Assembly: GCF_009735625.1 (NCBI RefSeq)
Contig: NZ_CP046244.1
Location: 186,001-250,000, forward strand
Direction of reading: 5' to 3'
DNA: 64,000 nt
DNA from: Moorella glycerini
GTDB lineage: Bacteria; Bacillota; DSM-521; Neomoorellales; Neomoorellaceae
A program made the position numbers and the translations under genes. Of the stretch, positions 26,061 to 35,928 are shown one piece after another. Below the pieces are notes generated by a model, which saw nothing but the letters and a program-made list of their open reading frames with translations, was not told where the DNA came from and did no database searches. Position 1 is the first letter of the stretch; each line of letters starts with the position of its first letter.

Positions 26061-27164
26061 TCATACCCGCACCAGTTCCCGCGGGTAATCCGTCAGTATT
26101 TCGTTCTTATCCTTGCTGATATAAATTACATCCGTCACCCGGGGACCGCCGATGCCGGGACGGTAAATGGTCGGCAGGAGCAAATCCACTACCATGCCGG
26201 CCTCAATTATTTCCGCCCGGCCCTTACCGATAATGGGGTAAAACTCCGACTGGCGCAGGCCCACCCCATAGCCGGCCACGTCCAGGTAGCTGTTGCCGTA
26301 GCCGGCGGCCTCAACCACCTCCCGGGCGGCGGCATCCACTTCTCCTGCTGCGGCCCCGGGCCTTAAGGCGGCTATGGCCCGGCCCTGGGCTTCCAGCAGG
26401 ACCTGATACACCCTTTCCTGTTCGGCCGGTATCTCACCCACGGCTACAGTCCGGCACATCTTGGCGCAGTAGCCTTCGCAGGTTGCTCCCAGGTGGATGA
26501 CTACTACTTCGCCAGGAGCAATCTTTTTATTGCTGGCACAGGGGTGGGTAAGGAGGGTACGTTCCCCCGATACTACCTGGGGCCGGAAGGAAGAACCGCC
26601 TGAACCCGCCTTCAGCATGGCGTATTCCGCCTCGGCCAGGATATCGAGTTCCGTCACCCCCGGCCGGACGCTCTTAATGGCCGCTGCCATGCCGCGGCAG
26701 GCGGCTGCCGCCGCCCGCCGCAGGAGATCCACTTCCGCTGGTTCTTTAATGGCTCGAATATGATAGAAGATATCGCTCGCCCCGATAAAATTGCTTTCCG
26801 GAAAAGCCTGGCGCAAGCCGTCGTAAAGGGCGAAGTCGACAAAATAGCGCTCAAACCCGATACGTGGCTCCTTCAGGCCGTAGGCCCTAATCCGTTCTAC
26901 AACCTTGCAGGCCAGGCTCTCCCGGGGGAAGAAATAGCCATAGGTGGTAAGCCCCGACTGTCGTTCCACGTAGCCTGCATCCAGCCAGAGGGTGACGGCG
27001 CAGGGTACACCCTCCCTGGGGATAAGCACGGCCAGGCACTCAATCTGGGTCAGGCCGGTGAAGTAGATCAGGTTTTCCCGGTTGACCACCAGGAGAAGGT
27101 CTAAATCCTTTTCCACCATTAATTGCCTGGCTCTGGCAAACCGGTTGGCAAAACGGGGCGCCAA
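26061..27164 (-). CDS. M24 (creatinase/aminopeptidase P-like) protein without metal ligands
   Basis: This 367-residue protein has the creatinase N-terminal domain (about 1-125) and a pita-bread C-terminal domain. None of the five metal ligands of M24 metallopeptidases is kept: the first Asp is His (VVIHLGATC), the second Asp is Lys (CAKMCRT), the HGIG histidine is Tyr (AGYGVGL), and the two Glu positions are Leu (VVDLLLP) and Thr (PRVTDV). Creatinase itself is metal-free, so a hydrolase or lyase acting on a small amidino or carboxyl compound is possible; a binding role is equally possible. TTG at 27164 has AAGGAG 8 bases upstream. It is the last gene of the catabolic operon. Confidence 0.8.
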   Translation of the reverse strand: MAPRFANRFARARQLMVEKDLDLLLVVNRENLIYFTGLTQIECLAVLIPREGVPCAVTLWLDAGYVERQSGLTTYGYFFPRESLACKVVERIRAYGLKEPRIGFERYFVDFALYDGLRQAFPESNFIGASDIFYHIRAIKEPAEVDLLRRAAAAACRGMAAAIKSVRPGVTELDILAEAEYAMLKAGSGGSSFRPQVVSGERTLLTHPCASNKKIAPGEVVVIHLGATCEGYCAKMCRTVAVGEIPAEQERVYQVLLEAQGRAIAALRPGAAAGEVDAAAREVVEAAGYGNSYLDVAGYGVGLRQSEFYPIIGKGRAEIIEAGMVVDLLLPTIYRPGIGGPRVTDVIYISKDKNEILTDYPRELVRV

Positions 27165-27189
27165 TGCTACCACTCCTTTTTTTACATCT

Positions 27190-28437
27190 TTAAAAGTCTT
27201 TAGGTTCCACCAGCAGGGAAACAATAACCCCCCCTACCAGGGACCAGAAGGGTGAACTGATCTTCAAGATGGTAATACCCGACATGGCGATTACCAGAGC
27301 AAAGAAGGCGCCGTAGCGGAACTTTTTGGAGGAAAAGGCCAGCTCAAATGCACTCAAAAGCACCCCGATCATGGCCAGGCCGGCCAGGAGGCTTACAAGT
27401 TGCGCTGGCAGGGCCTTGACAAAGGGCACTGCCACGCTGGCAAAGAGGCCAAAGGCGCCAAAGGTGATGCCGTTAACTATAGTCGCGGCGTAGCGGCCCG
27501 ATTTGTCAGGTCCTGCCTCTTCCGAGCTGCAGATTGCTGTCATGGGGCCGGCAATATTGGCGTTGTGGCCGCCGAAGAAGGAGGTTATTATGCCGCCGAT
27601 GCCACTGATGACAGTCATAGCGTTAATGGGTGCCTTGTATCCCTGGGCGGTCAGGACACCGTAGGCCTGGGCGTTTTCGGCGCCGATTACCAGTACCGCC
27701 AGGGGTATGGCAATGGCAAAGAAGGCTCCCGCGGAAAAGCCGGGCACGAAGAACTGCGGTAGTACCCAGGTTATTTTGACATCAGCAAACTTGAAGCCAC
27801 CTACCAACAAAGCTACAACTACGCCAACGACCAGGGACCAGAGAATAGGTGACACCTTTTTAGTCAGCCTCTGACCCAGGAAATAGCCTGCCAGGGCGGC
27901 GCCGGCTATAACCGGTGCTTGCTGGGTAGAGGTCACAATGCCCGTGCCGAACCTGATCATAGCCCCGGCGATCATGGCCATGACTATCGGCAACGGGATC
28001 CAGCGCATGGCCTTACCGATCAGACCGGAGACCCCCAGGAGCAGGACCAGGATGCCAGCGATCAGATAGGCACCCACGGCTTCGTTAAACGGAAACAGGG
28101 GTAAGGCCGAGGCCAGCATGACGGCGCCGGGAATGGACCAGGCCCCGTTAATGGGCATTTTGTAGTACAGGCCTAGAATGATACTGATGAGACCGCCAAA
28201 GAAATAAATTGAAAATAACCAGGATATGGTTTGAACATCCGTAAGTTTTCCATTCTGGGCAGCATTCATAACAATCAGGGCAGGCCCGGAACAACCGAAA
28301 ATGGTGGCCACTATTCCTGCCGTGATAGTGTTGGCGTTTAGTTTGCCCCAGAGATCACGCCAACCTTCACCAAATCCCGGGCCCTTTTCCCATATGGCTT
28401 CTTTGGGCTTTGATGACGTCTCGGTAGCTACGGACAT
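27190..28437 (-). CDS. BenE-like membrane permease
   Basis: This 415-residue protein has about 11-12 hydrophobic segments and motifs of the benzoate/proton symporter (BenE) and related NCS2-like fold (GAENAQAYGVLTAQGYKAP, FFGGHNANIAGPMTAIC). It probably imports an organic acid for the pathway encoded around it. An N-terminal hydrophilic stretch of about 30 residues precedes the first helix. ATG has AAAGGAGGT upstream. A strong hairpin separates it from the LarA-like gene, so expression within the operon may be uneven. Confidence 0.8.
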   Translation of the reverse strand: MSVATETSSKPKEAIWEKGPGFGEGWRDLWGKLNANTITAGIVATIFGCSGPALIVMNAAQNGKLTDVQTISWLFSIYFFGGLISIILGLYYKMPINGAWSIPGAVMLASALPLFPFNEAVGAYLIAGILVLLLGVSGLIGKAMRWIPLPIVMAMIAGAMIRFGTGIVTSTQQAPVIAGAALAGYFLGQRLTKKVSPILWSLVVGVVVALLVGGFKFADVKITWVLPQFFVPGFSAGAFFAIAIPLAVLVIGAENAQAYGVLTAQGYKAPINAMTVISGIGGIITSFFGGHNANIAGPMTAICSSEEAGPDKSGRYAATIVNGITFGAFGLFASVAVPFVKALPAQLVSLLAGLAMIGVLLSAFELAFSSKKFRYGAFFALVIAMSGITILKISSPFWSLVGGVIVSLLVEPKDF

Positions 28438-28475: not shown

Positions 28476-28516
28476 GGCCCCCTCCGGCTGTCCAGCCGGA
28501 GGGGGGCTGTTTTTTT
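28476..28516. terminator. Strong intergenic hairpin in the catabolic operon
   Basis: A 13-bp stem GCCCCCTCCGGCT/AGCCGGAGGGGG has a T-run on the plus-strand side only. Read on the operon strand it lacks a T tail, so there it is more likely an mRNA-end or processing hairpin; on the plus strand it would block antisense transcription. Confidence 0.6.
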
Positions 28517-29960
28517 AGCTGGCGGCTTTTCCGAGAACGCTCATGTCTATGCCCCGCTGCCGCAGCCACTTGGGTAAGAGTTCATTCTCTACTCGCTCGC
28601 TGACGGCCGGTGCTTTCTTTAGCAGCAGTTCGGCCAGGGGTTCGCTGACGTTGATACCGCCCATGGCGCCGTCAAAGATGAGGACCTTGCGGGTACCGGT
28701 AGTCTTATAGGCAAACTCCATGGCCGCTTCCGTTGTTTCGGCCACCACCGCATGCTTCAAATAGGTCAGGTTCTGGGGGTCACGGTTGAAGAGGTCCGCC
28801 TGCTCCTGGCCCACTACCACCGTGGGGATGTGCTCGCTGAAGAAGGCGCTGGGATAACCCGTCCAGGCGTAGTTGTGGACACACATCTTGATGGCCGGGT
28901 TCAGCGGGGGTATATCTTTCAGGAGCGGCCTTCCTGCCTTGCCGTAGAAGGCTTCCGTGTACCAGGTATAGGCCGGCAGGGGCAGGTCCAGGTCGTAGAG
29001 GTCGGTATTGGCCCCGGCAAAGTTGGCGTAAATGACCCCGGCCGAGAAGACATACACCACCGGGCAGGGGAAATCCAGGGCGGCAATGCACTCGTCGATC
29101 TCGCCGAAGAGGGTCATCATCTTACCGTAGTAACGGCAGCCGATCTGGGTCACCCGGTCGTTCAGGGCATAAAGGTCGCTGTCGGCGTCGACGCCGATGA
29201 TGCCGTTGGGCGCCACCGTCAAGAAAGAAGCAAAGGCAAACTTGCCCTGGACAAAGGGCGAGTCAAAGATAGCCCTGGCCGTAAAGTTGGCCGCCCGCGG
29301 CCCCAGGTTCTGGTGATAGGTGGACCGGGTCTCAATGCGGGCGTAGGACATGCCGAAGGGTTTCACGGCCCGGTCTACCTGGCGGTGGAAGTGGACCTCG
29401 CGCACGTCGCTGTTATGGGCATGGACAATCCAATCGGCGTCGTAAATCTTGCGGATGCCGTACAGCGTGCCTATCTCGGTTTCAATGGGTATCCCCTGGT
29501 CGATGGGCGCCACGCCGATGGCCTTGCCTTCAAAGTGTTTATCCAGGCCGTAGCGCTTGATATACTCTTCCGTCTCCCGGAAGCGCAGGCCCACCCCGGC
29601 CCGCAGGCGGATATTGTTACACCCCGTCCGGGCTTCGATGACGTCTTTCAAGGTCTTCAGCATCTCGGCGTAGGGCTCGCCGCCCAGGAGAGTGAAGCCG
29701 TGGTGGGAGGCCAGGATATTGACCGAGTGCTCCGGCTTGATCCTGCTCATGTCGATATTTTTGAGGGCTTCCTCCGTTGCCTTCCGGACGGCAGATACTC
29801 CCCCGGCGCCGGGATAAATTACTTCCGGCAGGTCGGGGAAAAGCTCTTTCAGTAAGACGGAGGTCATGCCCGGCAACTCGCTGACGCGAGTTTTAACCAG
29901 GGCGGGGTCAATACCATACTGGGATTTCCTCGGTGGTATAGGTGTAATGGGAGGACGCAT
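28515..29960 (-). CDS. LarA-type (DUF2088) protein, likely nickel-pincer nucleotide enzyme
   Basis: This 481-residue protein is unannotated at first sight but aligns by eye with lactate racemase LarA. The LarA His174, Lys184 and His200 (nickel ligand, cofactor-tethering lysine, nickel ligand) correspond to His190, Lys200 and His216 with identical spacing. The segments ETEEYIKRYG and AMEFAYKTTG...LIFDGAMG match LarA's STHEELVNKYG and C-terminal AMEKAYARE... regions. LarA His108, one of the two acid/base residues, appears replaced by Arg126 (GVGLRF), so simple lactate racemisation is unlikely. Neighbours suggest a 2-hydroxy or 2-oxo acid substrate. The comparison uses remembered LarA sequence. 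ATG has AAGGAGGG upstream. Confidence 0.6.
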   Translation of the reverse strand: MRPPITPIPPRKSQYGIDPALVKTRVSELPGMTSVLLKELFPDLPEVIYPGAGGVSAVRKATEEALKNIDMSRIKPEHSVNILASHHGFTLLGGEPYAEMLKTLKDVIEARTGCNNIRLRAGVGLRFRETEEYIKRYGLDKHFEGKAIGVAPIDQGIPIETEIGTLYGIRKIYDADWIVHAHNSDVREVHFHRQVDRAVKPFGMSYARIETRSTYHQNLGPRAANFTARAIFDSPFVQGKFAFASFLTVAPNGIIGVDADSDLYALNDRVTQIGCRYYGKMMTLFGEIDECIAALDFPCPVVYVFSAGVIYANFAGANTDLYDLDLPLPAYTWYTEAFYGKAGRPLLKDIPPLNPAIKMCVHNYAWTGYPSAFFSEHIPTVVVGQEQADLFNRDPQNLTYLKHAVVAETTEAAMEFAYKTTGTRKVLIFDGAMGGINVSEPLAELLLKKAPAVSERVENELLPKWLRQRGIDMSVLGKAAS

Positions 29961-30580
29961 CAGGATTCCCTCCTTCCCTGCAGGGGGGCTGCCACTACCC
30001 GGTCCAAAAGTTTGATGTCCTCGTCAAAGTAAAAGCCGCGGGTAGCATACTTGTGCTTGACTTCGTCCGGTATTTCCCACACCGTTACCGTCCGGCCGTA
30101 CCACTGCCAGCCGTCTTTAGGCGGTTCCGGTTTGATGCCGGCCGCTTCCAGGAGGCGCAGGATGGGCTGGATGCACTCCACCTTGCAGCCGGTACGGGCT
30201 CCCGTGAGGAAAGAAACCTCTTCCGGGGACCTCGCCCCCTGCAAAATGGCGGCGGCGACTTCTTCCGCCCGCGTGGCAGTGCAGTAGCAGATGATCTGCT
30301 CCGGGTTGAGCCGGGCGCGGCGGCAGATTTCTTCCACCCGGGCATAGTCAACGGCACTGACGTCGACTTTGACCACTACCGGTTGCTCCCGCTTTACCAT
30401 GGTAATGGCGTAGTCCGGGCAGCGCTGCTCGCAGGCGGCGCAGCCGCGGCAGCGTTCCGTGTCAACCACAGCCTTGTGGTTTTCTACTTTAATCGCCAGC
30501 ACCGGGCAGACCTTCTCGCAGGTTTTGCAGCCCCGGCACTTTTCGGCATCGACTGCCGCCAGTAAATTGACCACCTTCAA
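29960..30580 (-). CDS. Ferredoxin/BFD-like iron-sulfur protein
   Basis: This 206-residue protein has an N-terminal 2[4Fe-4S] ferredoxin domain (CRGCKTCEKVCP and CRGCAACEQRCP) and a bacterioferredoxin-associated [2Fe-2S] domain (CYCTATRAEEV, then TGCKVEC). The C-terminal ~50 residues are unassigned. It probably passes electrons in the pathway of this operon, for example to or from a redox step that precedes the hydratase. The stop/start contact with the LarA-like gene is one base, so the two are tightly coupled. The start is TTG behind AAGGAGGGG. Confidence 0.82.
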   Translation of the reverse strand: MKVVNLLAAVDAEKCRGCKTCEKVCPVLAIKVENHKAVVDTERCRGCAACEQRCPDYAITMVKREQPVVVKVDVSAVDYARVEEICRRARLNPEQIICYCTATRAEEVAAAILQGARSPEEVSFLTGARTGCKVECIQPILRLLEAAGIKPEPPKDGWQWYGRTVTVWEIPDEVKHKYATRGFYFDEDIKLLDRVVAAPLQGRRES

Positions 30581-30582
30581 GT

Positions 30583-31602
30583 TTAAACCCCTCCTTTCTT
30601 TTGTGCCAACTGGTAAGCAACATCAACAATCATGTCTTCCTGCCCGCCGACCATTCGCCTCCTTCCTAGTTCTACCAGGATATCCCGGGGGTCGAGGTTG
30701 AATTTCTCGGCCGCCCGGTAGGTATGCAAGAGGAAACTGGAGTAAACACCGGCATAGCCCAGCATCAGGGGTGCGTTGCGCACCACCTGGGGCCGGTGCA
30801 TGATGGGTTCGACGATATCTTCGGCCACATCCATTATCTTGTAGAAATCGACACCCGTCTGGTAGCCCAGCTTCTCCAGCACGCCTACCAGGGCCTCGGT
30901 CTGGGCGTTGCCGGCCCCGGCCCCTAAACCCCGGCAGGCACCGTCCAGGAAAGTCGCGCCGGCCTCTACCGCCGCCAGGGCGTTGGCCGTAGCCATGGTC
31001 AGGTTGTTGTGGGCATGGAACCCCACGGGTACTTTCACAGCTTCCACCACGGCCCCCACCCGGGCTTTGACGTCTTCCGGCAGCATGGCCCCGGCGGAAT
31101 CGGCTACATAGATAAAGTCCGCCCCGTATGATTCAAAGAGTCGGGCCTGCTCGACCACCTTTTCCGGCGGTGCCATGTGGCACATCATCAAGAAACCGAA
31201 GGCCTGCATCCCCAGCTTTTTGGCCATGCCGATGTGCTGCTCGCCAATATCGGCTTCGGTGACGTGGGTGGCCACCCTTACGGCCTTCGCGCCGCAATGA
31301 GCCGCCATTTCCAGGTCTTCCTGGGTGCCGATGCCCGGCAGGAGCAGGACTGTCAGGTTGCTTTTTTTAATGGCCCCGGCCGCCGCCTTGAGCATTTCTT
31401 CCTCGTTGAGCAACGCCCAGCCGTAGTTATAGGAGGAACCGGCCAGGCCATCGCCATGGGAAACTTCGATATATTCCACCCCGGCAGCGTCCAGGCCGCC
31501 GGCAATGGCGGCAATTTGTTCGGCCGTGAACTGGTGGCTGACGGCATGGCTGCCGTCGCGCAAGGTTGTATCGACCACGTGGATAAGCTTGGTGTTTTTC
31601 AT
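30583..31602 (-). CDS. mhpE: 4-hydroxy-2-oxovalerate aldolase
   Basis: The enzyme splits 4-hydroxy-2-oxovalerate into pyruvate and acetaldehyde and, in the family, channels acetaldehyde to the dehydrogenase encoded next to it. The 339-residue DRE-TIM metallolyase shows [16 protein letters not shown] at its N-terminus, the metal-binding HAHNN (about residue 198) and the C-terminal communication domain ([18 protein letters not shown]). Its start overlaps the dehydrogenase stop in ATGA. The length and motifs are normal. Confidence 0.95.
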
Positions 31603-32474
31603 GCTGCCACTTCCCCTGCTAAAATCTTTTGGGCCAGTTTTTCCGCTACGGCCACGGCGGCGGAGGTGATGATATCGAGATTGCCGGAGTACCTGGGCAG
31701 GAAATCGCCGGCACCCTCCACCTGGATGATTGTCGTTACCTTGTTCCCGTCCAGCAGGGGCGGCACCCGGAGCTGGTAGCCCGGTACGTAGCTCTGGATT
31801 TCCTTTACCATGGCCTCTACCGAGGCCCGGATGGCCCGCTCGTCCGGTTTTTCTACCTCAACGTAAATGGTATTGGTCATCATAATGGGCGGCTCGGCCG
31901 GGTTCAGGATAATAATGGCCTTGCCTTTTTGGGCTCCCCCGACAACGGTAAGAGCTTTAGCCGTCGTCTGGGTGAATTCATCGATGTTCTGGCGCGTGCC
32001 CGGGCCGGCGCTTTTGGAAGCAATACAGGCTACAATCTCGGCATACCTGGCTCCCGCCGCCCGGTTGATGGCGTGGACTATGGGCACCGTAGCCTGGCCG
32101 CCGCAGGTGACCATATTGAGATTGGGCTCAGCCTTGACCTGGTCCAGGTTAACACAGGGCACGACATAGGGGCCGACGGCGGCCGGCGTCAGGTCGATGG
32201 CGATTTTACCGGCCTCTTTTAAAAGCGGGGCGTGCTGCAGGTGGGGTTTGGCCCCGGTGGCGTCGAAGACTATTTTTATGTCTTTATCCTCCAGGACAGC
32301 CTGGACGCCTGCGGTAGAGGTCTTGATGCCTAGCCCGCGCGCTCGTTTGATGCCTTCGGATTCGATAATGCCGGTCATCAGGGCCATCTCCAGGTGCCGG
32401 CTGCGCAGGATCTTGTACATCAGGTCGGAACCGATATTCCCCGGGCCGATGACGGCCACTTTAACTTTATCCAC
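31599..32474 (-). CDS. mhpF: Acetaldehyde dehydrogenase (acylating)
   Basis: This enzyme converts acetaldehyde, CoA and NAD to acetyl-CoA. The 291 residues have the Rossmann motif [12 protein letters not shown], the catalytic Cys in [12 protein letters not shown] and the family-specific [15 protein letters not shown] stretch. It forms the DmpFG-type complex with the aldolase. The GTG at 32474 is chosen because AAAGGAG sits 8 bases upstream; the ATG seven codons earlier would bury that ribosome site inside the gene. Confidence 0.95.
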
Positions 32475-32538
32475 TGTCACATCTCCTTTTACCATTTATT
32501 CACGGATGGGCTTCGCCGGCCAGCAATAGCGCTCTATG

Positions 32539-33312
32539 CTATACAAATTTCAGGCTCAGGCTCCCCAGGCCGTAGAAGGATACGGTGAAGACATCGCCGG
32601 CGCCGGCGTTTTCGGCGGCGGTGACGGCGCCGGAGAGGATGATCTCCCCGGCTTCCAGGGCGATATCAAAGGTGGCCAGCTTGTTGGCCAGCCAGGCCAC
32701 GGCCGCCGCCGGGTGCCCCCAGACGGCGGCACCGGCGCCGGTACTCGCCACTTCCCCGTTCTTTTCCAGCACCATGCCGATGAGGCGCAGGTCCAGGTCT
32801 TTGATGGGCACCATACGGCTGCCCAGGACCAGGCGGGCGCTGGAGGCATTGTCGGCAATGGTATCCGGGAGCTTGATCTTCCAGTCGCGGATGCGGCTGT
32901 CGACAATCTCAAAGGCCGGCATAATGCCTTCCGTAGCCCGGTAAACGTCGGCAATGGTCACCCCCGGGCCCTTAAGGGTGTCCTTTAAAATAAAGGCCAG
33001 TTCCCCCTCCACCCGCGGCAAAAGAAGTTCCTCCCGCCGGCAAGGTTCTCCCTCCAGGAGCAGCATGTTGTCCAGCAGGTGGCCGTAGTCGGGTTCATTG
33101 ACCCCCAGCAGCTGCTGCATGGCCTTGCTGGTCAGGCCGATCTTTTTACCAATAACCTTGCTGCCCCGCCCTTTCTTCATCTCAATGCCGGCCAGCTGGA
33201 TGCGGTAGGCATCCTCTACCGTTAAATCCGGATAAGTAGTGGTCAGCGGTTCAATGGGCCGGCAGCTGGCTTCTGCGGCCAGGAGTTCAGCGGCAATGGC
33301 CTGGTAATCCAT
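32539..33312 (-). CDS. mhpD: 2-oxopent-4-enoate hydratase (MhpD/DmpE family)
   Basis: This 257-residue enzyme adds water to 2-hydroxypenta-2,4-dienoate to give 4-hydroxy-2-oxovalerate, feeding the aldolase downstream. Motifs include GKKIGLTSKAMQQLLGVNEPDYG and the metal-site EGELAFIL with a further Glu in MPAFEIVDSR. A close alternative is 4-oxalocrotonate decarboxylase of the same superfamily. ATG has AAGGAGGCC 6-10 bases upstream and overlaps the upstream MoCF-domain gene by 26 bases. Confidence 0.87.
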   Translation of the reverse strand: MDYQAIAAELLAAEASCRPIEPLTTTYPDLTVEDAYRIQLAGIEMKKGRGSKVIGKKIGLTSKAMQQLLGVNEPDYGHLLDNMLLLEGEPCRREELLLPRVEGELAFILKDTLKGPGVTIADVYRATEGIMPAFEIVDSRIRDWKIKLPDTIADNASSARLVLGSRMVPIKDLDLRLIGMVLEKNGEVASTGAGAAVWGHPAAAVAWLANKLATFDIALEAGEIILSGAVTAAENAGAGDVFTVSFYGLGSLSLKFV

Positions 33313-34207
33313 CTTCGTGGCCTCCTTCTTTCATTACGTTGCGCCAGCGTTCCCGCAGGGCGCCGGCTATATATTCTGCCAGGGCGCCTTTTTCCAGTCC
33401 CTGCTCCAGGCCGGCTAGCAGCCGGTCGCAGCCCAGCCGGGCTTCTTCATGGGGACCGGGCAGGGCCACCAGGCGGGCTATGCCCACCTGGCCCACGGCA
33501 ATGCGCACCCCTTCTTTATGATGGCGGTGATAATCAGGTTTAAACTTCAAGATCCAGGGAGTACAGGCCTCCGGGTCCAGGCGCAAGATGGCTTCAATGC
33601 TGAAGTCCTTGTCCTCGGCCCCGACGCCGCCGGTGGTGATCAGCAATCCATAACCTTCTTCCAGGGCGCCTTCCAGGCGGTTGGCCACCGCCACGGCGTC
33701 ATCCTCCAGGATCCCGCCGAAGCTCGTGCGGTAGCCTGCTTTTTCCAGGGCCGCTATAATATAAGGCGAATTGGTGTCTTTGATCTTCCCGGCTATAACT
33801 TCCGCTCCGGAAGCAAAGACCGCGGCCCGCCGGGCGACGGCCCGGCTGATACCCCGCGCCAGGGCGGCCGATTCCGCCAGTACCCGGGCCGCCGCCTCCG
33901 GCTCCAGGGCAATTACCCCCAGCACCCCTTCCGAGTGAACGGCGGCTCCCGGTTTTAAAGTTACCCCCGGCAAATCCGCCAGGCGCCTTAAGATTTCCTT
34001 CTCCTTGCCGGCTACTGCTTCCGCCCGCACCCTGCGCCGCAGGATATCAAAGGCCACCAGCCCCGGCCGGACGTCCACCACCATTACTTCCTGAGCTGGT
34101 AGTTCCATGGCGGCGGCTGCTGCCGCGGCCACCTGGCCCAGGTCGGCGGCGGTTAGTTCAATGTTATCGATCCAGAAGGTCGTTTTCTCCAGCAGGTCCC
34201 ATTCCAC
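33287..34207 (-). CDS. MoCF-type molybdopterin-binding domain protein
   Basis: This 306-residue protein has a C-terminal MoCF domain (about 140-290) as in MogA, MoaB and CinA: the motif LLITTGGVGAEDKDFS and a final RLVALPGPHEEA. The N-terminal ~120 residues are unassigned. Such domains bind molybdopterin or a related ligand. It is odd to find it in a meta-pathway operon with no molybdenum enzyme nearby, and it may bind a different nucleotide-like ligand. The GTG at 34207 with AAGGGGGG upstream is used rather than an outer ATG, which would overlap the next gene. Confidence 0.75.
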   Translation of the reverse strand: MEWDLLEKTTFWIDNIELTAADLGQVAAAAAAAMELPAQEVMVVDVRPGLVAFDILRRRVRAEAVAGKEKEILRRLADLPGVTLKPGAAVHSEGVLGVIALEPEAAARVLAESAALARGISRAVARRAAVFASGAEVIAGKIKDTNSPYIIAALEKAGYRTSFGGILEDDAVAVANRLEGALEEGYGLLITTGGVGAEDKDFSIEAILRLDPEACTPWILKFKPDYHRHHKEGVRIAVGQVGIARLVALPGPHEEARLGCDRLLAGLEQGLEKGALAEYIAGALRERWRNVMKEGGHEDGLPGHCR

Positions 34208-34322
34208 GGGGTAATCCCCCCTTCTCATAGTATTTGACCCGGCCCCGCTTGCCATATGATGGCAACAGGATAGTGTATAATTTGCTTGAGTTGGAATGTA
34301 CAGGAAAATGTTATCCTTCCGT

Positions 34323-35135
34323 TTATACAGAAATCCCTTCCACATCCAGGCTTAAATCCAGCAGCGGCGCATCGATAATGGCCCGGCCGACATCGACGAT
34401 GTCCGCCCCGGCGGCAATTACCTCCTCCAGGCCTGCCGGCGTGACGCCGCCGGCAAAGGCGAGTTTTACTTTTTCCCGCCAGCCGCCTTGCTGCGCTGCT
34501 GTCACCACTGTTGCCAGGTCCTCCAGAAGGCCGGTATCTACCATGATAATTCCTGCCCCGGCCCTTACTGCGGCCTCCGCTTCACCGGCTATGGGCCGGC
34601 CCTCCCCGCGGACCTGCACGGCGATCACCCGCTCCTGGTCATAGGCGCGCGCCCGGCTCACCGCCGGCTCGACGCCTCCTAAAAGGCGGACGTAATTTTT
34701 ATCCAGGTAGATAAAGGGGCGTTCGGTAATGCGGATACCGGCACCGCCGGTGGCGATGGCCCGGCGCAACTCGTCCCTTATTTCCGGGGCTACCTTTTTC
34801 CACGCGCCGCAGACGACTTTTATCCGTCCCCCGGCCTGCCGGACAAAATTAGCCGCCGCCGTGGCCACCCCGGAGGGCTTACCTATAACTCCCAGGAGCA
34901 TCTCTTCGGCCCGGATAATCGCCGGGGCCTCGCCCCTGGCCCGGAAAAGGCAGCTTCCCGTTTCCAGGGGATAACCCTCGGGGGCTGCCCAGGTTACTTC
35001 CAGCCCCAGTTCACCTGCTACCCGGGTTAACCTGGCTGCCCCGGAGAATATTCCCCTTTCCCGGGCGGTGATGGCAAAGGCCAGGATATGCCCCGCCAGG
35101 GGGGCAAAGAGATATTCTCTAAGCTCCACTGGCAT
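34323..35135 (-). CDS. Divergent QPRTase/ModD-like protein
   Basis: The sequence follows the quinolinate phosphoribosyltransferase (NadC) and ModD fold: an N-terminal region, LLGGVEPAVSRARAYD, IIMVDTG and the closing block FAGGVTPAGLEEVIAAGADIVDVG. The NadC signature RKT-PG is not evident, and the catalytic EVEV glutamate position reads QVRG. It is therefore unlikely to be a normal NadC. It may act on another pyridine or phosphoribosyl substrate. The start ATG at 35135 overlaps the IclR gene by 17 bases, so the two are coupled. Confidence 0.7.
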   Translation of the reverse strand: MPVELREYLFAPLAGHILAFAITARERGIFSGAARLTRVAGELGLEVTWAAPEGYPLETGSCLFRARGEAPAIIRAEEMLLGVIGKPSGVATAAANFVRQAGGRIKVVCGAWKKVAPEIRDELRRAIATGGAGIRITERPFIYLDKNYVRLLGGVEPAVSRARAYDQERVIAVQVRGEGRPIAGEAEAAVRAGAGIIMVDTGLLEDLATVVTAAQQGGWREKVKLAFAGGVTPAGLEEVIAAGADIVDVGRAIIDAPLLDLSLDVEGISV

Positions 35136-35928
35136 CACTTCCTGCCGCAGGCCGGTAACCAAGGCCGGCCGAAATCTCCGCTGCCGTCCGGGTGACCAGT
35201 TCTACGGCCAGCTGGAACCTCTCCCCTTCCAACCGTGCCACCGGGCCTGCAACGCTAATCGCGGCACATACTTTGCCGTTATGGTCCCTTATCGGAGCTG
35301 CCACGCAGCGGAGACTATCCATAATTTCCTCATTATCTACGGCATACCCTGCCGCCCGGATTTTTTCCAGTTCCGCCTCCAGCCGGCGCGGGTCGGTGAT
35401 GGTATGACTGGTATAGCGGGCCAGGCCTTTGGTCGCGATGATCCGTTTCACCTCGCTGGGGTGCAGGTAGGCCAGCAGTACCTTACCCACCCCGGTACAG
35501 TGGGCCGGCAGGCGCATGCCGACCTGGGAAACAATCCGCAGGGACTGCTGGCTTTCTCGCTTGTCAATATACAGTACTTCCCCCTTATCGAGGACCACCA
35601 GGTGGACTGTCTCCTCCATTTCATTAACCAGCTGTTGAATAAAGGGTGCGGCAACTTTACGCACATCCCAGTTGGCAGCAACAACGTTGCCGATTTCAAA
35701 AAGCCGTACCCCCAGGCGGTAGCGGCCGTCGAAGGGCGACTGCTCCAGATATCCGAAATCCCGCAGGGTAGCCAGCAACCCATGAAGGGTGCTTTTCGGC
35801 AAATCCATGGCGCGAGCTATTTCCGCCAGCGACATATCGCGCTGGTTGGCGGCCAGCAGGTCCAGGATCATTAACGCCTTGGCCACCGAGCGAATCCGCG
35901 AAGCATTATTCTGGTCCTTTATTGCCAT
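35119..35928 (-). CDS. IclR-family transcription regulator
   Basis: This 269-residue protein has an N-terminal winged helix (about 10-75: MSLAEIARAMDLPKSTLHGLLATL) and a C-terminal GAF-like effector domain with the family's GRYRLGVRLFEIG and AISVAGPVARL motifs. It heads the operon and should control it in response to a small acid, as IclR proteins do for aromatic and hydroxy-acid catabolism. ATG has GGAGGCTGGC upstream. Confidence 0.92.
   Translation of the reverse strand: MAIKDQNNASRIRSVAKALMILDLLAANQRDMSLAEIARAMDLPKSTLHGLLATLRDFGYLEQSPFDGRYRLGVRLFEIGNVVAANWDVRKVAAPFIQQLVNEMEETVHLVVLDKGEVLYIDKRESQQSLRIVSQVGMRLPAHCTGVGKVLLAYLHPSEVKRIIATKGLARYTSHTITDPRRLEAELEKIRAAGYAVDNEEIMDSLRCVAAPIRDHNGKVCAAISVAGPVARLEGERFQLAVELVTRTAAEISAGLGYRPAAGSDASGA

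Follow-up and report, generated by a model that had tools for sequence, protein, structure and literature searches.

LARX, our working name for the protein encoded at 28515–29960 on the minus strand of the window (the whole stretch of 64,000 nucleotides of Moorella glycerini DNA that was analyzed), is a previously uncatalogued distant cousin of lactate racemase (LarA), and its family is missing from Pfam and NCBIfam. Our preferred reading, to which we assign a probability of about 0.6, is that LARX opens the ring of 2-furoate reductively in a ferredoxin-dependent reaction. The fold, the invariant residues, the gene content and the linkage of the gene were established by computation, and from these we infer the cofactor, the substrate, the electron flow and the chemistry.

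28515–29960, minus strand: LARX, a distant LarA-fold protein of 481 aa matched by no Pfam or NCBIfam model; candidate residues are K200 (NPN lysine), H216 (Ni ligand) and H190 (acid/base), with R126 for LarA His108

The LARX gene is an intact ORF with an ATG start and a 1-base overlap with the preceding ferredoxin gene. An earlier note on this DNA had called the product a LarA-type enzyme and had looked to a LarA/DUF2088 HMM match for support. No Pfam or NCBIfam model matched LARX at 1e-3, and a Lar_N search of the M. glycerini genome (E≤1) recovered four ordinary LarA proteins without returning LARX. Searches of the PDB with LARX by phmmer and by profile gave no LarA match, comparison of LARX with LarA by sequence alone (hhalign) was not significant, and a 67-member profile found no family intermediate between the two in 396 genomes of the phylum. 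The missing LarA/DUF2088 match is due to divergence, since the predicted fold is clearly that of LarA. A search of 398 genomes of the phylum gave 25 near-full-length relatives of LARX and 1 partial one, and the GTDB species set gave 106, with more than 100 relatives at 66–97% identity. The roughly 100 bacteria that carry LARX are mostly anaerobic and include Moorella, Desulfotomaculum-type bacteria, Desulfosporosinus, Clostridium, Oscillibacter, Flavonifractor and Sporomusa, with further hosts in the Deltaproteobacteria, the Chloroflexi and a few Alicyclobacillus/Aneurinibacillus. No copy of LARX turned up when plasmids were searched.

Structure prediction makes us confident that LARX is a LarA-fold protein. 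The AF2 model computed with 67 sequences (pLDDT 87, pTM 0.88) has the two-domain fold of LarA; an earlier, weak model from 20 sequences (pLDDT 63) was already LarA-like. When the model was compared with the PDB, the best 11 entries were all LarA-type and matched over both domains (Z 18.6–20.1), and the next, unrelated entry scored 6.7. Foldseek agreed with the LarA-type match, with E-values to 4e-9. The description of LARX as a LarA-type enzyme is thus supported at the level of predicted fold, and its candidate pincer lysine is supported as well.

The residue assignments proposed earlier fared unevenly. The correspondence of His190-Lys200-His216 with LarA His174-Lys184-His200 was borne out: the spacing is the same (−10/0/+16 around the lysine), so that the NPN lysine (K184) and the Ni-ligand His (H200, +16) of LarA have counterparts in K200 and H216, and all three LARX residues, like R126, are invariant in 67/67 aligned relatives. 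The pattern HX9KX15H appears in 1.3% of shuffles of LARX; spacing alone is therefore modest evidence, and it is the fold match that makes it convincing. In the MAFFT alignment of the N-domains the Lys/His motif was left unplaced and its register was taken from spacing; overall, the proposed register is based on spacing, on invariance and on the predicted fold that LARX has in common with LarA. As for the claim that Arg126 stands in place of LarA His108, LARX and all 67 relatives appear to have no His at that position, whichever alignment is used, but the pairing with R126 itself is seen only on the ungapped profile diagonal; in the MAFFT alignment H108 lies opposite a one-residue gap and R126 pairs with LarA Arg109. 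The profile diagonals of LARX and LarA are colinear (offsets 17, 20, 18 and 26). From the pair of catalytic His residues of LarA (H108 and H174) only H190, equivalent to H174, is found in LARX. That the enzyme has only one catalytic His was nevertheless not established, as the family has additional invariant His residues (H86, H87, H180, H182 and H192).

A further difference went unremarked in the earlier note. LarA D72 and R75 align with LARX H86 and F89, both by MAFFT and on the profile diagonals, and Asp72 and Arg75 thus appear to be replaced by His86 and Phe89. In LarA, Arg75 contacts the NPN phosphate and Asp72 serves in catalysis. These apparent changes, read from the alignments, may mean that the cofactor is bound differently or is modified. 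LARX shares the fold, the Lys/His residues and the larBCE linkage of LarA but not His108, Asp72/Arg75 or the HMM match, and LarA-like is therefore a better name for it than LarA racemase.

The genes around LARX form a cassette in the order IclR, QPRT-like, MogA-like, MhpD, MhpF, MhpE, ferredoxin, LARX, BenE and M24:

26061–27224, minus strand: M24 creatinase/prolidase-like hydrolase (PF00557/PF01321), present in about half of the loci
27190–28437, minus strand: BenE-type aromatic-acid transporter (TIGR00843, 245.7 bits, cut-off 203), proposed to take up furoate
29960–30580, minus strand: ferredoxin (Pfam Fer4 and Fer2_BFD) with two 4Fe-4S motifs and a BFD-like [2Fe-2S] domain, the proposed electron donor
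30583–31602, minus strand: MhpE/DmpG, 4-hydroxy-2-oxovalerate aldolase with DmpG communication domain (TIGR03217, 539 bits, cut-off 286)
31599–32495, minus strand: MhpF/DmpF, acetaldehyde dehydrogenase (acylating) (TIGR03215, 458.6 bits, cut-off 282)
32539–33312, minus strand: MhpD/DmpE-like, 2-oxopent-4-enoate hydratase (TIGR03220, 316.9 bits, below the cut-off of 408.8)
33287–34345, minus strand: MogA/MoeA-type (MoCF_biosynth, PF00994) protein with an N-terminal domain of its own; the true start probably lies some 40 residues into the ORF
34323–35162, minus strand: QPRT-like protein of the NadC/ModD fold (PF01729/PF02749), below the nadC and modD cut-offs, proposed to carry out a nucleotide-cofactor step
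35119–35928, minus strand: IclR-type transcriptional regulator (PF01614/PF09339), recurring in most loci

The ferredoxin gene adjoins LARX in 80 of the 85 loci that have both on one strand, and pyruvate:ferredoxin oxidoreductase lies beside several LARX loci. The M24 hydrolase perhaps frees furoate from an amide conjugate.

Neighbor genes were clustered over 104 stretches, made up of the window, 23 whole-genome stretches and 80 GTDB loci, with some loci represented twice. Three recurrent neighbor families were identified by NCBIfam as LarC, LarB and LarE, the proteins of nickel-pincer (NPN) cofactor synthesis. At least one of larB, larC and larE is present at 33 LARX loci, and in 30 of these all are on the LARX strand. 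At a Dethiosulfatibacter locus (L100) the run is QPRT-MogA-MhpD-MhpF-MhpE-Fd-LARX-UbiD-transporter, continued by a small ORF, UbiX (assigned by membership of cluster c33), a second small ORF, LarB, LarC and LarE. LarC occurs in 25/26 LARX genomes compared with 200/372 others (p=4e-6). The earlier note had asked for larB, larC and larE in the genome, and all three were found there, LarE and LarC side by side and LarB elsewhere. Two genomes (G132 and G087) have LARX together with LarB, LarC and LarE and lack any Lar_N protein, so that LARX is the sole visible client of the NPN cofactor in them. At most loci the cofactor made by LarBCE might, in principle, be destined for other LarA proteins that the genome encodes. 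Because larBCE genes lie beside LARX and these two genomes carry LarBCE without a recognizable LarA, we consider it very likely that LARX is a LarA-fold enzyme that uses the NPN cofactor.

Several irregular loci were also seen. One genome (G308, 99% complete) has LARX, LarA, LarB and LarE with LarC undetected, either an assembly gap or a real loss. At L027 (G098:C2:803156-803305) a second, N-terminal LARX fragment of 50–64 residues adjoins larC, apparently the remnant of a second LARX-larC locus. Matches to larC came in pieces at G343:C77:51682 and at G042:C27:5639-6783 (in overlapping frames in G042), and these genes are perhaps split or frameshifted. In the M. glycerini genome itself (L032, 2857366-2860524), a DUF362-like protein that carries ferredoxin motifs weakly matches the end of Lar_N, a hint that LarA and the DUF362-type proteins are remotely related.

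The genes for the QPRT-like and MogA-like proteins are recurrent companions of LARX (window 33287–35162; loci L051, L081, L116 and L122). In some loci the two appear as fused ORFs, through which they fall into one cluster. All 26 LARX genomes encode the N-domain of the MogA-like protein, against 2/370 others (p=1e-38), a tighter association than that of LarC. This protein keeps the TTGG motif of MogA; in the QPRT-like protein the typical NadC substrate motifs look, by eye, changed or lost. Since the QPRT and MogA fold types both handle nucleotide cofactors, the pincer nucleotide may plausibly be modified here, and the two proteins possibly constitute a new nucleotide-cofactor pathway. We speculate that the cofactor is such a modified pincer nucleotide, in which case the apparently missing Arg75 would be in keeping with an altered tail on the nucleotide. 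That two proteins co-inherited with LARX have no role in the furoate proposal counts against it.

The same near-perfect co-occurrence, together with the apparent loss of Arg75, would also suit a LarA fold that works without NPN, with larBCE serving another LarA and the cofactor of LARX perhaps supplied by the QPRT-like and MogA-like proteins. We give this a low probability, as K200 and H216 are invariant and two LARX genomes have LarBCE and no recognizable LarA. Moreover, among loci L067–L146 only 1 of the 24 with larB/C/E has a Mar-type LarA cluster, larB/C/E being found at 33 loci overall.

Returning to the preferred reading of LARX as a 2-furoate reductase, the substrate is suggested by what lies downstream and upstream. 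MhpE and MhpF score above their cut-offs and the MhpD-like protein is nearest to the hydratase (TIGR03220 was the best of four related models), and the pathway should therefore run through 2-hydroxypenta-2,4-dienoate to pyruvate and acetyl-CoA. Addition of 2H to 2-furoic acid (C5H4O3) gives C5H6O3, the formula of 2-hydroxypenta-2,4-dienoic acid, which is the MhpD substrate. On the upstream side, an aldehyde:ferredoxin oxidoreductase (AOR) with its ferredoxin and an Fe-ADH recur at other loci, as do UbiX and TRAP genes. A dozen loci carry a UbiD that is orthologous to PtHmfF (641 bits to 6h6v, next family 222), and the full-length UbiD proteins at LARX loci are about 50–100% identical to the tested UbiD. 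HmfF and AOR occur at a minority of loci and neither is in the window. Structure 6h6v is that of PtHmfF (PMC8988006), which interconverts 2,5-furandicarboxylate (FDCA) and 2-furoate and also accepts pyrrole-2-carboxylate (PMC8252502), and a related tungsten AOR oxidizes furfural to furoate (PMC9424855). We infer that the HmfF-type UbiD, AOR and Fe-ADH neighbors converge on 2-furoate. Nicotinate and benzoate degradation were considered and rejected, as matching genes do not recur among the identified neighbors.

In the proposed pathway, 2-furoate would be taken up by BenE or a TRAP transporter, formed from 2,5-furandicarboxylate through decarboxylation by HmfF/UbiD, or derived from furfural via Fe-ADH and AOR. 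The NPN cofactor of LARX, probably tethered at Lys200 and with its nickel bound by His216, would be reduced or recharged by the adjacent ferredoxin. NPN carries hydride at C4 (PMC11770544), and a hydride from C4 of the cofactor (or from Ni) would attack C5 of 2-furoate. The C5-O bond would then break to leave an enolate, which could be protonated by His190 or His86 to release 2-hydroxypenta-2,4-dienoate. Arg126 and nearby conserved Arg would hold the furoate carboxylate; a reductase needs one acid and no pair of His residues, which agrees with an Arg that binds the carboxylate where LarA has His108. MhpD would hydrate the dienoate, MhpE would split the product into pyruvate and acetaldehyde, and MhpF would convert the latter to acetyl-CoA. 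To our knowledge, no NPN enzyme carries out a net reduction. A fuller version of this proposal, in which a ferredoxin-coupled NPN enzyme opens 2-furoate reductively and the QPRT-like and MogA-like proteins possibly convert NPN into a variant form, has in our judgment about an even chance of being right.

The earlier note had suggested that LARX might run a different reaction from LarA, such as epimerization, dehydration or redox at a 2-hydroxy acid. Epimerization and dehydration are disfavored because the neighbors imply no 2-hydroxy acid, and the ferredoxin and MhpDFE point to net reduction; redox chemistry, which the note did list, is thus the option favored, although on a different type of substrate. 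A conventional NPN racemase, epimerase or dehydratase of a pathway-linked 2-hydroxy acid would be in keeping with the LarA fold, the larBCE linkage and the activities of known LarA enzymes (PMC7583248, PMC11770544). We nevertheless regard it as quite improbable, given that 0/67 relatives have a His at the His108 position, LarA D72 and R75 appear changed, a ferredoxin adjoins LARX, and MhpD-E-F require no 2-hydroxy acid.

Two other alternatives alter the substrate. The same enzyme and pathway may act on pyrrole-2-carboxylate or another five-membered heteroaromatic acid, opening of the pyrrole giving 2-aminopenta-2,4-dienoate and its hydrolysis 2-oxopent-4-enoate and ammonia. PtHmfF tolerates pyrrole-2-carboxylate (PMC8252502) and the product would join the same MhpDFE route; the presence of AOR, Fe-ADH and dicarboxylate/TRAP transporters speaks rather for furfural, furfuryl alcohol and FDCA, and we consider the pyrrole version unlikely. 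That LARX acts on a different aromatic acid, with MhpD serving as decarboxylase or hydratase on a C6 product, would agree with the benzoate-type transporter BenE and with an MhpD below the cut-off for both hydratase and decarboxylase models. Most cassettes have a single MhpD-family gene, however, and the UbiD neighbors are HmfF-type rather than hydroxybenzoate decarboxylases, which makes this possibility very unlikely.

The NPN enzymes described in the papers that we consulted racemize or epimerize 2-hydroxy acids, as shown or proposed (PMC7583248, PMC11770544). If the 2-furoate reading is correct, LARX would be the first case of net redox chemistry by an NPN enzyme, widening the role of the cofactor, and would show how hydride can be supplied to NPN from ferredoxin. 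It would also supply the step, missing so far, by which furans enter degradation in anaerobes. Anaerobes have been reported to degrade furfural. According to a 2018 review, alternative routes independent of oxygen were still to be found (PMC6604932), and the LARX cassette, whose conservation extends from Moorella to Deltaproteobacteria and Oscillospiraceae of the gut, is a specific candidate for such a route. In our literature search of CC-licensed PMC papers we found no description of an anaerobic enzyme for 2-furoate ring opening and no paper that joins furoate with NPN; prior publication is possible. An anaerobic route to acetyl-CoA from furoate, furfural and FDCA would have practical value, since all three rank among the major biomass chemicals.

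LARX resembles LarA of Lactiplantibacillus plantarum (5HUQ) and the malate racemase Mar2 (6D6Z) in its predicted two-domain fold, its His-Lys-His spacing and its larBCE linkage. It differs from them in having no Pfam or NCBIfam match, no His108 and apparently changed D72 and R75, and in its adjacent ferredoxin and catabolic MhpDFE cassette. The single-His proteins LarA-Bw and LarA-Sp (9Q3J, 9Q3K; PMC12611868) likewise have the LarA fold, miss one catalytic His and are not standard racemases. They keep the His108 equivalent and have Asn for His174 (PMC12611868), whereas LARX loses the His108 position, so LARX is a different variant; moreover, they were found by LarA sequence search, unlike LARX, and their context points to carbohydrate metabolism. 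The Trudgill pathway (HmfABCDE of Cupriavidus basilensis; PMC6604932) shares with our proposal the substrate 2-furoate and an HmfF-type decarboxylase upstream, but proceeds through furoyl-CoA and hydroxylation to 2-oxoglutarate, and not to pyruvate and acetyl-CoA. Neither a CoA ligase, a furoyl-CoA dehydrogenase or another HmfABCDE protein nor a ring-cleavage dioxygenase is among the recurrent LARX-locus neighbors that were identified. With the lower pathway of meta-cleavage (MhpDFE, DmpEFG) the LARX cassette has the MhpD, MhpF and MhpE homologs in common; in contrast to that pathway, the hosts of LARX are mostly anaerobic and the ring opening would be reductive.
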